Positions 17,581 through 22,957 of a stretch of DNA of 34,065 nt are shown in pieces (the first letter of the stretch is position 1; the number at the start of each line of letters is the position of its first letter). The translations under genes and the position numbers were made by a program. This DNA comes from a virus, in the IMG/VR virus record IMGVR_UViG_3300045482_000073, positions 1-34,065 of that record, one strand, 5' to 3'. The notes under the pieces are model-generated. The model searched no databases and had not been told where the DNA came from. It was given only the letters and a program-made list of their open reading frames with translations.

Positions 17581-18375
17581 ATGTCCGGAAACGACGCCTT
17601 CCTCTGGTACAACGTCGGTGATTGGGGCCGGTTCGGCCTCGCGATTCCCAACTTCTCCAACGACACCAAGTCGCAGAACGACACGATCCGCTATCTGACC
17701 GACGTGGTCGGGCGGAACCTGCAGGCGATCCTGTGGCATCCTGATGCCCGGCTGCGGACGCCCCCGTCGATCAACACGCTGACCCGCATCCACAAGCTCT
17801 GCACGCGGGCGCGGTCGATTCTCGCGTCGCGGGCGGTGCCGGCCAACATCCTCAACATGGAGACGGCCCACGCGCTCCCGGCTCCCGAGGAGTTCCTGGT
17901 CTACCCCACGCCCTACTTCATGGTGCGGAATCAGTGGCTCAAGCAGTACGCCGGGCTGATGCTGCTGGCGCTGACCGAAGCGATGCAGCACCAGGAAAAC
18001 GCCCGGCCGCTGGAGATTAGCGAGGCGTTCGCGGGACTGATCGGCCAGTATGTCCAGCGGGTCTACCGGCTCGTGGCCACGGAACTGTTCCGCGTGCCGC
18101 TCGCCGATGCCGCGAAACCGGACTTCGCGCTGACCGATGCGCAACTGGCGGCCTACAACCCGTCGGCCTGGTTCACGAGCACCGAGATGATCGACACCGT
18201 TGCTCCACTGGATGACTGGCCGACCGAGGACGACCTCGAAGTCCTGACCAACGGCATCCCGATCAGCCATCTGCCGGTCCTCGGCCGCTGGCCGTCGGGA
18301 CCGAGTGGCTCGGTCGGTTCCAGCCAGTCGAATGTTCCTGCGAGCGAATCGTTCGCACGAGCGCCTTCGGCTTAG
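17581..18375 (+). CDS. Conserved-looking tail-module protein, function unknown
   Basis: This 264-aa, mostly helical protein opens with NDAFLWYNVGDWGRFGL and has a central aromatic YPTPYFMVRNQWLKQYAG stretch. No family is recognised. Its place before the tail tube suggests a structural or assembly role. The last 30 or so residues are Gly/Ser/Ala-rich and look different from the body. They are encoded partly by a palindrome (18339-18357), and the TAG stop itself is the first three bases of an inverted-repeat arm, so insertion of that element may have reshaped the C-terminus. A GAAAG box precedes ATG 17581. Confidence 0.7.
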   Translation: MSGNDAFLWYNVGDWGRFGLAIPNFSNDTKSQNDTIRYLTDVVGRNLQAILWHPDARLRTPPSINTLTRIHKLCTRARSILASRAVPANILNMETAHALPAPEEFLVYPTPYFMVRNQWLKQYAGLMLLALTEAMQHQENARPLEISEAFAGLIGQYVQRVYRLVATELFRVPLADAAKPDFALTDAQLAAYNPSAWFTSTEMIDTVAPLDDWPTEDDLEVLTNGIPISHLPVLGRWPSGPSGSVGSSQSNVPASESFARAPSA

Positions 18376-18404
18376 GCTGAAGACTGGAGGCTGAAGACTG
18401 AAGG
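18373..18404. repeat. Left arm of the cassette (heptad repeats)
   Basis: After TA, the arm consists of 7-bp units GGCTGAA, GACTGGA, GGCTGAA, GACTGAA and a final GG. It pairs with 18776-18807. Confidence 0.8.
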
Positions 18405-18406
18405 TG

Positions 18407-18766
18407 TCACGCGCGGTCCCGCAACGAGCGGATGAGGCCGTTGAGTACCTTCGATGTCTCGATGGCGTGAGCCTCCAGCTTCTTGAACGCCTCGTCCGTC
18501 AGGTATCCGAGGCGGACTGCGATTGATGCCTGGTAGGCCAATTCCCGCGAGGAACCGTAGGCCATGTCCAGGAATCGCAGGTACTCCGCCTCGGATGCTC
18601 TCGCGGAGCCCTCGACGATGTTGGACGCAATCGACACCGAAGCACGTCGCATCTGGTTGGTCAGACCAAACTGTTCATGCGACGGAAACGATGTCGTGGA
18701 CCGGTAGGTCAACAGCACGAGTTGATCGGCCAGTTCGAACGCCCTGAGTTTCGTGTGATCTCGCAT
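18407..18766 (-). CDS. Four-helix-bundle protein (23S rRNA intervening-sequence protein family)
   Basis: This 119-aa leftward gene has the full family pattern: an opening helix with LRAFELADQLVLLTYR, the signature FGLTNQMRRASVSIASNIVEG (split here around residues 33-53), and the closing SSRELAYQASIAVRLGYL helix. Relatives are encoded in 23S rRNA intervening sequences and resemble the Avd accessory protein of diversity-generating retroelements; they form positively charged oligomeric bundles that bind nucleic acid (family knowledge). Its ribosome site AAGGAG (plus-strand 18774-18779) straddles the inner end of the right inverted arm. It is the only leftward gene in the tail module, which supports arrival by insertion. 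Confidence 0.9.
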   Translation of the reverse strand: MRDHTKLRAFELADQLVLLTYRSTTSFPSHEQFGLTNQMRRASVSIASNIVEGSARASEAEYLRFLDMAYGSSRELAYQASIAVRLGYLTDEAFKKLEAHAIETSKVLNGLIRSLRDRA

Positions 18767-18775
18767 CGATGTTCT

Positions 18776-18807
18776 CCTTCAGCCTTCAGTCTAAAGCCTT
18801 CAGCCTA
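18776..18807. repeat. Right arm of the cassette (inverted heptad repeats)
   Basis: On the minus strand the arm reads, after TA, GGCTGAA, GGCTTTA, GACTGAA, GGCTGAA, GG. It overlaps the first base of the tail tube start codon and leaves no obvious Shine-Dalgarno for that gene. Confidence 0.8.
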
Positions 18808-19247
18808 TGTCTGTGAAACTCGGCCTTGATGCCAAGCTCTACCGCAACACGGGCAACTACGCCGCGCCCAACTGGCAGGAGATGAAGAACGTCAAAGATC
18901 TGACGCTCTCCGTCGAAGCGGGCGAGGCCGATGCCACGACGCGCGGCAATGCCGGCTGGAAGGCGACGCTGGCCACGCTCAAGGATGGCTCGATCGAGTT
19001 TGAGATGGTGTGGGACACGGCCGACGCTGGGTTCACGGCGATCCGCACGGCGTTCTTCGGGAATTCGCCGATCGAGTTCGCAGTTCTCGACGGCGACAAG
19101 GCCACGACCGGTACGCAAGGATTGCGGGCGTCGATGGCGATCACCAAGTTCAGCCGCAACGAACCGCTGGAAGAAGCGATCACGGTTTCCGTGACGGCGA
19201 AACCGACCTACAGCGACCATGCGCCGGAATGGATGGTGGTGCCGTAG
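18807..19247 (+). CDS. Phage tail tube protein
   Basis: This 146-aa protein has the tail tube pattern: KLGLDAKLYRNTG at the start, a VKDLTLSVEAGEADATTRG block (about residues 29-47), a central SIEFEMVWDTAD strand, and a C-terminal EAITVSVTAKPTY strand. These form the beta-sandwich ring that stacks into the tail tube. It precedes the G/T chaperones and the tape measure, the canonical order. No ribosome site is visible because an inverted-repeat arm abuts the ATG, so translation may depend on coupling or be altered by the insertion. Confidence 0.88.
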   Translation: MSVKLGLDAKLYRNTGNYAAPNWQEMKNVKDLTLSVEAGEADATTRGNAGWKATLATLKDGSIEFEMVWDTADAGFTAIRTAFFGNSPIEFAVLDGDKATTGTQGLRASMAITKFSRNEPLEEAITVSVTAKPTYSDHAPEWMVVP

Positions 19248-19249
19248 GC

Positions 19250-19284
19250 CAGTCGAGAGGCAAGAGTCCAGAGTCGAGAGCAAG
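19250..19284. repeat. Heptad repeat run between tail tube and chaperone genes
   Basis: Five consecutive 7-bp units read CAGTCGA, GAGGCAA, GAGTCCA, GAGTCGA, GAGCAAG. They occupy most of the 53-bp gap. The period and composition match the arms of the four-helix-bundle cassette and the hairpin at 22882-22957, suggesting one repeat family. Confidence 0.65.
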
Positions 19285-19300
19285 CCCCACGGAACCAGCC

Positions 19301-19762
19301 ATGAAATCGTTCGCCGACGCCAAAGGGCAGGCCTGGACCATCGAGATCAATGTCACGTCGCTGCAGCGCGTCCGCGCCGGGACGGGGCTTGATCTCACCA
19401 AATTGGTCGATCGACAGGCTGACGTGTTTCCCAAGCTGGCGGGCGACCTGTTCGTCCTGTTCGACGTCCTGGCGGAGCTGTTGCGGCCGCAGCTGGAAGC
19501 CAAGGGGATGACGGCCGAGCAGTTCGGCGAGTCGCTCGATGAAGAGGCGGCCGAACGGGCGGTGACGGCGTTGATCGAGGGGATTCTCGATTTTTTCCAG
19601 GAAGGGAAGCGGATGCTCCTGAAGCGGGCGTTCGCGAAGGTGACCCAGGCCGCTCAACACCGTCGCGCGACAACGCTCAACTCGGCGCTGCAGAAGGTCG
19701 AGAGCCTGGAGTTCGACCAGGCGCTGGAGACGGCGCTCGCCGCACCGACACCTGGCGGCTGA
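19301..19762 (+). CDS. Tail assembly chaperone (lambda gpG-like)
   Basis: This 153-aa protein begins MKSFADAKGQAWTIEINV, a short strand-rich start followed by helices (LTKLVDRQ; ELLRPQLEAKGMTAEQF; AVTALIEGILDFFQ). It lies between tail tube and tape measure, where siphophages encode the G/GT chaperone pair that coats the tape measure before tube assembly. ATG 19301 is used; an in-frame start at 19010 would lie within the tail tube gene and is rejected. Near residue 97 the mRNA contains a perfect T TTT TTC slip heptamer in the right phase, and the conserved T-like sequence continues in the -1 frame past this gene's stop. Confidence 0.8.
   Translation: MKSFADAKGQAWTIEINVTSLQRVRAGTGLDLTKLVDRQADVFPKLAGDLFVLFDVLAELLRPQLEAKGMTAEQFGESLDEEAAERAVTALIEGILDFFQEGKRMLLKRAFAKVTQAAQHRRATTLNSALQKVESLEFDQALETALAAPTPGG
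19591..19597 (+). promoter_or_regulatory. Candidate -1 ribosomal slip site (T TTT TTC)
   Basis: In the chaperone frame the codons read GAT TTT TTC, so both P-site and A-site tRNAs can re-pair after a one-base backward slip. The -1 frame is free of stops from here to the T-like end at 20055. In other phages the slip site lies nearer the end of G, so a less obvious site close to 19740 is an alternative. Confidence 0.45.
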
Positions 19763-20055
19763 TTTACGAACTGGCGGGTCTGCTGCGGATCGATCCCGGC
19801 CCGTTCACGCTGCGGCAACTCTGCTGGATGGCCGACGCCGCGTCCCGTGATCGCTGGCAGCACACCGCTTCTCTCATGGCCCTGCTGGCCAATTGCCATC
19901 GCGATCCCCAGAAATCGCGCGCCTTCCGTCCGAAGGACTTTCATCCGTTCGAGAAGTCACGCCGGCGTCTGTCCGGTCAGAAACCTCCCAAGGTTGGGAT
20001 CGAAGTCCTCAAGCAAGTCTTCGTGGATCGTCGCCCGCTCGTGGCGACGGAGTAG
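19747..20055 (+). CDS. T-like extension of the tail assembly chaperone (-1 frame)
   Basis: In the frame -1 to the chaperone gene the sequence reads DTWRLIYELAGLLRIDPGPF, LRQLCWMADAASRDRW and LMALLANCHRDPQK, ending VDRRPLVATE. The first 20 or so residues are protein-like and overlap the end of the upstream gene, but the only ATG is at 19828, in the middle of this block. The natural way to make the whole block is a -1 frameshift giving a G-T fusion, as in lambda GT. A CTG start at 19759 cannot be excluded. The coordinates give the recognisable part, not a defined start. Confidence 0.7.
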   Translation, partial: DTWRLIYELAGLLRIDPGPFTLRQLCWMADAASRDRWQHTASLMALLANCHRDPQKSRAFRPKDFHPFEKSRRRLSGQKPPKVGIEVLKQVFVDRRPLVATE

Positions 20056-20064
20056 TTCCCCTCT

Positions 20065-22062
20065 ATGCCCGCTTCCTCGCAATCGATCCGCGCCGGGAAG
20101 GCGTATGTCGAACTCTTCGCCGACGACTCCAAGCTCGTCCGCGGGTTGCGGTCTGCCCAGCGGAAGCTCCGGGCCTTCGGCTCGGCGGTGCAGACGTTGG
20201 GCAAGGGCGTGTTCGGAATCGGCGCGGGACTGGCCACGCCGTTCGTCACTGCCGCCAAGCTGTTTGCGGACATGGGGGGCGACCTGGATGACATGAGTCA
20301 GCGAACCGGGGTCTCGATCGAGTCGCTGTCGGAACTGGATTACGCCGCTCAACTCTCAGGCAGCAACCTGGAAACGCTGGAGGCGGGGCTTCGCAAGATG
20401 CAGAAGGCGGTCGTGGCCGCCGCCGAGGGTTCGGACTCCGCCGTGGCCACTTTGGGTCAGTTGGGACTGACCGCCCAGCAGTTGCAGCGACTCAGTCCCG
20501 ATCAGCAGTTCGAGTTGATCGCCGACCGGCTCTCGCAGATCCAGAATCCGGCCGAGCGCGCGGCGCTGGCAATGGAACTCTTTGGCAAAACCGGGACGGC
20601 GCTGCTGCCGCTGATGACCAACGGGGCGAAGGGAATCATCGCCCTGCGGCAGCAGGCGCGGGAACTGGGAGTGGTGCTGTCGACGGAGGACGCGCTGGCG
20701 GCTGCCAAGTTTGGCGACACGCTCGACACCCTCTGGAAAATCCTGCGAATGGGAGTCGTGCAGATCGGCGCGGCCGTGGCTCCCGTTTTGTCCGATCTCG
20801 CCGAAACGATCACCCGCGTCGCCGTCACGGTCGCCAGTTGGGTCAAAGAGAATCGCGCGTTGCTGGCCACGGTCTTCAAGGTGGCCCTCGGCATTATGGC
20901 GGCCGGCGCGGCGCTCTTGGCCCTGGGAGCCGTGATTTCCGGGATTGGCTCCGGGTTGGGATTGCTCGCCACGCTCGTCACCGGGCTCGGGACCGCGATC
21001 GGGTTCATCGGAACGGTTCTGGGCGCGATCCTGACGCCGGTCGGTGCCGTCACGGTCGCCATCGCAGCCCTCGGCGCATACGTCTTATCTGCGTCCGTCG
21101 CGGGAACCGCGGCGCTGGAGTGGCTCGGACAGCAGTTCGCGACGCTGCAGGCGGAAGCCCTCGGGGCGGTTCAGGGGATCAGCGATGCCCTGGCAGCAGG
21201 CGATCTGGCGCTCGCGGCCAAGATCCTCTGGCTGACGCTCAAGTTGCAGTGGCAGAAGGGGATCAACGCTCTCAATTCGCTGTGGCTGAATGTCAAAGCG
21301 TTCTTCGTCTCGGTCTGGACGGAGGCGGTTTACAACGTCGCCGCGATCGCGACCAATGCCTGGGCCGGGCTGCAAACCGGCTGGACCGAAACGGTCGACT
21401 TCCTGGCGGATGCCTGGTCCCTCTTTTCGACCGGACTGATTCAGGGTTGGCACACGACGATCGGGTTCATCCGCAAGGCCTGGGTCCGGCTCAAATCGCT
21501 GTTCGACTCCGACGTCAACGTCGATGCCGAGGTCACTCGGATCAATGACGATGTCGCGGGCAAGAACGCGGCGGCGACCGCAGCGCGCGATCAGTCGATC
21601 TTCGCACGAGATCAGGCCCGTCAGCAGCGGCTGTCTGAGCTCGACCAAGGCCGCAGCGGCACCCTGGACGAACTCGAACGGATGCGCGAGGCCGACCAGG
21701 CCCGACACCGCCAGCAGTTCGAGGCCGACCTGCAGGAATCGGACGCCGCACTCGCCGCCGCCCGGCAGGAATGGCAGGCGGCCCTCGAAGCCGCGTCCGA
21801 GAAGCAGGCCGCTGTCGAAGGCGAAGCGGGAGGTCGCCCTGACCGGATGCAGGAATTGGAAGACCTGTTGGCCCAGGCCGGCGATGGACTCGATGGAGCC
21901 GCCGCCAAAGTCAGCGTCAGCGGATCGTTCAATGCGGCGGCCGCGCGGGGGCTGGGCGCGGGAACCCATGCCGAACGGACTGCCAAAGCGACCGAGGAGA
22001 CCGCCCGCAACACCAAGCGGCTCCTGGACGAAGCCCATCACGGCGGGTTGCAGTTCACCTGA
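20065..22062 (+). CDS. Tail tape measure protein
   Basis: This 665-aa protein has an N-terminal domain typical of phage tail tape measures (AYVELFADDSKLVRGLRSAQ; then GGDLDDMSQRTGVSIESLSE), helix-rich spacing sequence, and a strongly hydrophobic central block (about residues 275-345) of the kind that inserts into the host membrane. The C-terminal region (about 505-600) is rich in Arg, Gln, Glu and Asp and should form a long coiled coil. Tape measures set tail length and help DNA entry. By the usual relation of length to tail size this suggests a tail of roughly 100 nm (inference). It begins nine bases after the T-like stop without a clear ribosome site. Confidence 0.9.
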   Translation: MPASSQSIRAGKAYVELFADDSKLVRGLRSAQRKLRAFGSAVQTLGKGVFGIGAGLATPFVTAAKLFADMGGDLDDMSQRTGVSIESLSELDYAAQLSGSNLETLEAGLRKMQKAVVAAAEGSDSAVATLGQLGLTAQQLQRLSPDQQFELIADRLSQIQNPAERAALAMELFGKTGTALLPLMTNGAKGIIALRQQARELGVVLSTEDALAAAKFGDTLDTLWKILRMGVVQIGAAVAPVLSDLAETITRVAVTVASWVKENRALLATVFKVALGIMAAGAALLALGAVISGIGSGLGLLATLVTGLGTAIGFIGTVLGAILTPVGAVTVAIAALGAYVLSASVAGTAALEWLGQQFATLQAEALGAVQGISDALAAGDLALAAKILWLTLKLQWQKGINALNSLWLNVKAFFVSVWTEAVYNVAAIATNAWAGLQTGWTETVDFLADAWSLFSTGLIQGWHTTIGFIRKAWVRLKSLFDSDVNVDAEVTRINDDVAGKNAAATAARDQSIFARDQARQQRLSELDQGRSGTLDELERMREADQARHRQQFEADLQESDAALAAARQEWQAALEAASEKQAAVEGEAGGRPDRMQELEDLLAQAGDGLDGAAAKVSVSGSFNAAAARGLGAGTHAERTAKATEETARNTKRLLDEAHHGGLQFT

Positions 22063-22071
22063 TGAAGACTC

Positions 22072-22869
22072 ATGAGCGTCACCGTCACCGAGAAATGGGA
22101 ATCGCGCGAGCAGTCGGCCGGGGAGCAGCCCTCGGTCGATCTGCGGTTCCTGGTCGTCGGGACAGCGGATGACATCAGTGCGCACAGCGAACTGATCGCC
22201 CAGACGCCAACGACCTACAACGGTCTCGTCCGGCAGTCGACGCACCTCGAACGCATCGCCGAGGAAGCCTGGGAAGGTTCGGTCCGGTACGGTCCCTATG
22301 AACCGCCCCAGACCGGGGACTCGTCGTTCTCGTTCGACACCGGCGGTGGCACGCAGCACATCACGCAGTCGCTGGGGACGGTCGGCGCGTGGGGCGCGGC
22401 GGGCATCTTTCCTCCCAACTTCCACGGGGCGATCGGAGCGACGCAAGACAGCATTGAAGGCGTGGACATCACCGTCCCGATCTACAACTTCAGCGAGACG
22501 CACTACATCGATCCGATCTTTGTGACCGGAGCCTACAAGGCGGCGCTGTTCTATCTGACGGGGACCGTCAATAACGGCGGCTTCCGGGGCTTCGCCGCCG
22601 GTGAAGTCCTGTTCCTCGGTGCGGCGGGTTCAGTGCGAGGACAAGAGCACTGGGAGATCACCTATCGTTTCGCGGCGAGTCCCAACGTCGTCGGGCTGTC
22701 GGTCGGATCGATTGGCGGCATCGCCAAACGAGGCTGGGATTACCTGTGGGTCCGCTACGCCGACGTTGAGGACTCGGCCGCCAAGATGCTGGTGAAGCGT
22801 CCGCTGGCGGTCTATGTCGAACAGGTCTACCCCTTCACCAACTTCTTCGGACTGGGGATCGGAACGTGA
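22072..22869 (+). CDS. Probable distal tail / baseplate protein
   Basis: This 265-aa beta-rich protein follows the tape measure directly (nine-base gap), where siphophages encode distal tail or baseplate-hub proteins. Visible landmarks are a SFSFDTGGGTQHITQS strand region, several Gly/Phe/Tyr-rich turns and a C-terminal KRGWDYLWVRYAD block followed by VEQVYPF. No named family is recognised. The role is inferred from position and beta composition. Confidence 0.65.
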   Translation: MSVTVTEKWESREQSAGEQPSVDLRFLVVGTADDISAHSELIAQTPTTYNGLVRQSTHLERIAEEAWEGSVRYGPYEPPQTGDSSFSFDTGGGTQHITQSLGTVGAWGAAGIFPPNFHGAIGATQDSIEGVDITVPIYNFSETHYIDPIFVTGAYKAALFYLTGTVNNGGFRGFAAGEVLFLGAAGSVRGQEHWEITYRFAASPNVVGLSVGSIGGIAKRGWDYLWVRYADVEDSAAKMLVKRPLAVYVEQVYPFTNFFGLGIGT

Positions 22870-22881
22870 CGAAAGGCTGAG

Positions 22882-22957
22882 GGTCGAGAGTTGAGAGTTG
22901 AGGGCCGGATTCTCTGCTTTCTTCTGACTCTCCACCCTCAACCCTCAACTCTCAACC
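22882..22957. repeat. Heptad-repeat hairpin between tail genes
   Basis: Left arm 22882-22904 and right arm 22935-22957 are inverted and match at 21 of 23 positions with a 30-base loop. The left arm reads GGTCGA then GAGTTGA units. The hairpin fills the gap between two tail genes. It has no T-run directly after it and so is not a classical terminator, although it might cause partial termination or RNA processing. It resembles the cassette at 18373-18807 without a gene inside. Confidence 0.75.

Follow-up and report, generated by a model that had tools for sequence, protein, structure and literature searches.

In the tail module of the virus studied here, three gaps between genes are filled by imperfect 7-bp repeats (heptads), and one of these gaps also holds a small gene. 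This arrangement raises the question of what the repeats are, whether they belong together and how they came to stand between tail genes. The window is the whole stretch of DNA analysed, 34,065 bp, and is itself an IMG/VR virus record. In this neighbourhood the tail tube gene (PF06199) starts at 18807, and there is a tape measure gene at 20065. Both reading of the sequence and Tandem Repeats Finder, which reported period 7 at 18377-18403, 18776-18806, 19251-19280, 22878-22902 and 22930-22957, confirmed that period-7 runs occupy the three gaps, as the initial annotation had claimed. The features are as follows.

18374..18404, plus strand: element 1, left arm (3' arm of the IVP gene), AGGCTGA AGACTGG AGGCTGA AGACTGA AGG; score 34.4.
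18407..18766, minus strand: gene for IVP ('23S rRNA intervening sequence protein'), a four helix bundle protein of 119 aa (PF05635/TIGR02436); antisense to the tail genes.
18774..18779, minus strand: AAGGAG, read from the sequence at the 5' arm's inner end, likely the Shine-Dalgarno site for IVP.
18776..18806, minus strand: element 1, right arm (5' arm of the IVP gene), inverted, AGGCTGA AGGCTTT AGACTGA AGGCTGA AGG; score 38.0.
19251..19284, plus strand: lone arm, AGTCGAG AGGCAAG AGTCCAG AGTCGAG AGC; score 15.2; without a partner arm.
22874..22904, plus strand: element 3 (empty hairpin), left arm, AGGCTGA GGGTCGA GAGTTGA GAGTTGA GGG.
22925..22957, minus strand: element 3 (empty hairpin), right inverted arm, a period-7 run found by heptad detection.

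The left arm of element 1 starts within the TAG stop codon (18373-18375) of the upstream gene, and the right arm stops at 18806, one base short of the tail tube ATG. The runs had been thought to share a G/A-rich strand bias. This was not the case: 18374-18404 is G/A-rich on the plus strand and 18776-18806 is C/T-rich, so that the arms are inverted; in 22874-22957, which is geneless, a G/A arm comes first and a C/T arm second, with a short loop between them; and 19251-19284 is a lone G/A arm, which we regard as a one-armed remnant or partial copy. A same-strand repeat family is ruled out by the inverted arms. The empty hairpin carries no PF05635 gene and, taken alone, would be an ORF-less member. 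A separate 33-bp tandem repeat (11 codons) lies at 21719-21794, inside the tape measure gene.

The product of the gene in element 1 scored 113 bits against PF05635 (cut-off 33.8), and its relatives with solved structures are 2gsc and 2rld. It also matched PHROG 3206 (Avd-like) at 7e-10 and shares a homologous four-helix-bundle fold with Avd of diversity-generating retroelements, but reached only 22.1 bits against NF033474, for which the cut-off is 80. Together with the lack of a reverse transcriptase among the tail-module neighbour genes tested, this keeps it from being classed as a retroelement Avd.

To score the runs, we used a heptad detector trained on IVP flanks, with an array threshold of at least 13. 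The window contained eight such arrays, seven of them in the three gaps (38.0, 34.4, 20.8, 19.0, 15.5, 15.5 and 15.2), compared with a mean of 1.25 (maximum 4) in 40 order-2 Markov simulations of the whole window. Because simulated scores never exceeded 22.2, the arms at 18.4-18.8 kb are far beyond chance. The hairpin of element 3 folded with a z of -3.75 (1 of 200 shuffles was equally good), which, together with the empty orthologous gaps described below, supports the hairpin at 22.88 kb. Element 1 in its entirety folded into one closed hairpin with a z of -6.6.

Relatives of the IVP gene were compared at 14 loci from viral contigs and 80 loci from genomes (Planctomycetota, Verrucomicrobiota, Desulfobacterota, Nitrospirota, Bacteroidota, Zixibacteria, Actinomycetota and others). 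Heptad arms flanked the gene on both sides in 86 of 104 cases and on one side in 13 of 104. Lag-7 autocorrelation in the flanks was 0.42/0.44, compared with 0.22-0.32 at lags other than multiples of 7, and the arms shared the inward unit A.91 G.94 G.56 C.81 T.61 G.51 N. Within 150 bp of IVP genes the density of heptad arrays was 3.3 per kb; in the rest of these loci it was 0.35 per kb, or 0.20 once tRNA arrays were left out. Similarly, none was found in 360 kb of ordinary chromosome of Planctomycetes bacterium CA13 versus 28 in its 40-kb tRNA/IVP region. The earlier claim that the repeats lie in intergenic gaps and are tied to a four-helix-bundle gene is thus supported, and it withstood both of the refuting conditions set out in the initial annotation.

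The IVP gene itself is under strong purifying selection (dN/dS mostly 0.02-0.15), and about ten charged or polar residues (R2, R8, D14, E31, Q38, R40, S45, E52, E75 and E103) are invariant across phyla, though copies are often truncated or interrupted. When 20 loci were scanned with Rfam for rRNA genes around IVP relatives, the only hit was one tRNA. The gene was antisense in 33 of 40 cases in phages and tRNA arrays and sense in 23 of 25 in a Desulfobacterota-type clade, which rules out antisense orientation as a general rule.

Arms within one element aligned with a mean of 30, compared with 17 between elements and 13.7 for shuffled flanks. This likeness of partner arms would be expected if short tandem repeats were born by slippage in each gap, with inverted arms arising through hairpin-templated correction and nothing moving. 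Such an origin in place is difficult to reconcile with the recurrence of one consensus heptad in many phyla, specifically around one gene family.

We then compared full and empty members. In CA13, IVP-bearing and empty heptad hairpins are interspersed between consecutive tRNA genes. The phage loci (772 kb) contained 26 inward arm pairs, 16 enclosing an IVP gene and 10 empty (79-200 bp), and GAGTTGA and GGGTCGA, the heptad variants seen in the empty hairpin of the window, recur beside an IVP gene of Neorhodopirellula pilleata (L226), on both of its sides. The proposal of a single family with gene-bearing and empty members was essentially right. N. pilleata also carries, in at least eight dispersed copies (L296-L325), an IVP element of ~600 bp with 6-bp-periodic inverted arms (GTGCTC/GAGCAC), and heptads are accordingly not the sole arm type. 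The right-end hairpin of this element (~85 bp) is also found alone, REP-like.

Orthologous gaps differ in the presence of these elements. Of 31 relatives, 29 have no more than 9 nt between the genes at 22072 and 22964, where the window has 94 nt. The slot between the genes at 17581 and 18807 holds IVP elements in the window and in the related phages L002 and L038 and is 26 nt in L043, and in L016 (5604-6000), L017, L018 and L025 another small gene, by appearance a putative thermonuclease, takes the place of the window's IVP element (18376-18806). In other phages, IVP stands next to the gene at 19301, upstream of the tube gene, or in the interval that separates the tape measure gene from the gene at 22072. 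The phage IVPs required 7-9 label changes on an IVP tree of few columns and many unresolved forks, suggesting repeated acquisition of IVP by phages. The insertion junctions are not readable to the base because the closest phages with an unoccupied site are only 60-80% identical in protein; no phage deposited in INPHARED had this IVP.

Expansion, which the initial annotation had also proposed, is not evident in this phage, whose lone arm, weak when taken alone, is kept in the relative L016. It was seen only in L002/L038, where one arm beside the IVP gene consists of ~25 near-perfect tandem AGGCTCC heptads, a recent expansion. In the gap between the tube gene and the next gene, L038 (6436-7515) has a heptad arm with an apparent decayed second IVP copy and the related phage L060 (2110-2178) has octad-like AGGCACGA repeats. 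One phage contig, L009, has two different IVP elements from separate parts of the IVP tree, and two or three tandem tail tube paralogues are present in the related phages L069, L087 and L090.

The placement of the elements bears on whether they are functional phage or host RNA signals (terminators, attenuators or RNase III sites) selected for operon regulation, with IVP as a separate accessory gene. Consistent with such signals, 74 of 87 elements with both neighbours called (by a simple gene caller) sit between co-directional genes, elements often abut stop or start codons or stand 5-7 nt from tRNAs, and the fold is stable. However, the same gap lacks the hairpin in nearly all related phages, no T run follows the hairpin, and IVP-free relatives manage without hairpins, which makes this explanation very improbable.

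Direct evidence of movement came from Desulfobacterota, in which the elements have sharp ends (GTAACTACTCAGG...) and exact 8-bp target-site duplications (TSDs) and form a size series from 453-bp IVP-bearing elements to 56-bp hairpins. The full-length 453-bp IVP elements L133, L134 and L166 had exact 8-bp TSDs at their ends (AAGCAGAT, TATTTTAA and AAATTGAA). Copies with internal deletions are scattered among unrelated flanks in G008, a draft deltaproteobacterial genome; most are 90-97% identical. They have sharp ends (GTAACTGCTCAGGT...ACCTGAATAGTTAC), range in size from ~310 bp to a bare hairpin of 56 bp, and show exact direct repeats of 8 bp at L267 (GATAATAG), L293 (ATGAATTC) and L295 (CGATTTCC). 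In a flank-match test, 3 of 82 had matches of at least 8 bp, all exactly at the ends, versus 0.5 for swapped pairs. Three related genomes contained 77-209 ends each, compared with 3-10 for the reversed motif, and more exact duplications were seen; many of the MITEs have an exact 8-bp TSD. Copies dispersed among unrelated flanks were found in G008, G011-G014 and G005. The Desulfobacterota elements are therefore genuine transposable elements with MITE derivatives, and the empty hairpins clearly spread there on their own as MITEs.

Overall, the comparative data show a transposable element with inverted arms, which the initial annotation had not proposed, and we consider it likely that the heptad runs are the terminal arms of one small transposable-element family, here called IVP elements. 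An origin of the runs by slippage in place still draws on the long near-perfect array in L002/L038, which shows that slippage occurs, and on the absence of TSDs in planctomycetes and phages, but near-identical dispersed copies with unrelated flanks and 8-bp TSDs speak against it, and we regard it as improbable. Slippage has probably shaped the arms after insertion.

How these IVP elements move was considered separately for the two groups. IS66 ends begin with GTAA and the family generates 8-bp repeats (PMC11946415), and an IS66-family element in the genome G014 has the ends GTAACTTCTCACG, of which only about the outer 11 bp are common with the heptad elements; this IS66 element is itself without a TSD. 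IS66-like transposition in trans is therefore the likely route in Desulfobacterota, although a transposase was not seen inside any heptad element. A contig sample of G014 gave only six elements in 273 kb, none with IVP, too few for a census of autonomous partners. In the window and in planctomycete and phage members, the ends lack GTAAC and no TSD was detectable, and the window's elements consequently do not have the GTAA-starting ends and 8-bp TSD of IS66. The planctomycete and phage elements may for this reason move differently or be old, although related chemistry could also serve this class.

Alternatively, IVP itself could provide mobility by acting on the heptad arms, as a small transposition or retro-mobility factor of a new kind that lacks any known nuclease fold. 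Intact heptad elements were found to contain no gene other than IVP, and the conserved residues and purifying selection described above would suit such a role, as would the relationship of IVP to Avd, which is essential for retrohoming (PMC10053308). Moreover, an IS66 transposase was not found in five of seven Desulfobacterota drafts hosting GTAAC-ended elements, but these drafts are incomplete and one transposase family alone was sought. The fixed 8-bp TSD and GTAA ends indicate a DDE transposase, and IVP-free derivatives are more numerous than IVP copies. In addition, L365, L375 and L386 share ends but have quite different repeat arms, so that the ends, not the heptads, seem to be recognised there. 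On balance, we think it unlikely that IVP moves the elements by itself, though less so than an origin by slippage.

The latter three loci belong to a set of GTAAC-ended elements with other periodic arms (GGCACAAAG, CACAGATNNAC and ACAGGATA units), seen at L393 (15923-16053), L386 (14845-14967), L365, L375 and L360, with an exact 8-bp TSD in L386 and L360. We regard these as a wider class of periodic-arm MITEs. GxxExxY genes (TIGR04256) were examined as candidates for another resident gene. Repeat-like flanks, without heptad arms, occur beside some of them, and in L410 and L412 such flanks are present on both sides (CACAGATTACGCAGATT; CTCTGCGTCTCCGCG). These loci may represent a parallel family of elements built round a different gene.

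Returning to IVP elements as mobile DNA, an intact element is ~430-450 bp long, with two inward arms of four to five degenerate heptads (consensus AGGCTGN) around the IVP gene, and loss of the interior leaves empty hairpins of ~55-200 bp. On this reading the window holds three members, all in intergenic gaps: one copy with the gene, one empty copy and one remnant with a single arm. Movement would take place as DNA through a transposase acting in trans, and IVP may bind the arms or the folded RNA and aid either movement or tolerance. By analogy with the Coxiella 23S rRNA intervening sequence (IVS), the paired arms may allow RNase III to cut a transcript that bears the insert, and insertion into operons, tRNA arrays and tail modules would then do little harm.

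Several known systems resemble these elements in part. REP elements with RAYT genes (REPtrons) likewise combine one small gene between inverted repeats with many geneless genomic copies, but RAYT is a Y1/HUH transposase rather than a four-helix bundle, and REPs are single palindromes rather than tandem heptad arms. Heptamer tandem repeats also occur in other bacteria, among them the STRR of cyanobacteria. The heptamer TAACTGA of Beggiatoaceae consists of 7-bp units in intergenic gaps (PMC4853749); both of these differ in their unit and are reported mainly as direct repeats, with no tie to one gene family. The elements carry terminal inverted repeats, as MITEs and other transposable elements do, and the Desulfobacterota members share with MITEs and IS66 the GTAA-type ends, the 8-bp TSD and internally deleted copies (PMC11946415). 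Unlike IS66, however, their interior is IVP with heptads, and the planctomycete and phage members do not have these ends or TSDs.

The closest likeness is to the 23S rRNA IVS with an S23p/IVP ORF (Leptospira, Coxiella, and 16S/23S insertions of CPR bacteria, which encode IVP; PMC11270868), in which a PF05635 gene lies in the loop of a ~430-bp insert with paired ends. The Coxiella IVS has tandem heptamers (GACAGAT) upstream of the ORF, and excision of IVS by RNase III has been shown experimentally for Coxiella and others (PMC4990558). Element 1 has both the PF05635 gene and complementary ends that pair round the ORF, but it lies between tail genes, and its relatives lie between tRNA or protein genes and in phages rather than within rRNA; it would therefore work like an IVS but is not filed as one. 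In addition, unlike the IVS, the present elements have geneless derivatives, dispersed multicopy families and TSDs. The Coxiella 23S rRNA IVS looks like an rRNA-resident form of IVP elements.

IVS, MITEs and IS66 are thus known. What appears to be undescribed is that IVP genes in general belong to heptad-armed elements that lie outside rRNA, in phages and tRNA arrays, and that have MITE derivatives. Searches of the open-access literature yielded no account of IVP genes with such arms away from rRNA, which is weak evidence of novelty. How bacterial rRNA IVS arose and what they do has long been an open question, as it has for the 'four helix bundle protein' family, and mobility of the IVS has so far been only hypothesised (PMC4990558). 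Because IVP sits in a common multicopy element with recognisable ends, geneless derivatives and, in one clade, exact TSDs, both movement and the part played by IVP can now be tested directly. It is a tentative suggestion, and one that we hold with considerable doubt, that PF05635 proteins serve specifically as the mobility factor, or the RNA-tolerance factor, of cross-phylum heptad-armed elements, of which the classic 23S rRNA IVS is one variant; if true, this would answer both where the IVS come from and what IVP does. IVP elements would also provide one explanation for heptad repeats in the phage, tRNA-array and operon gaps of many phyla.
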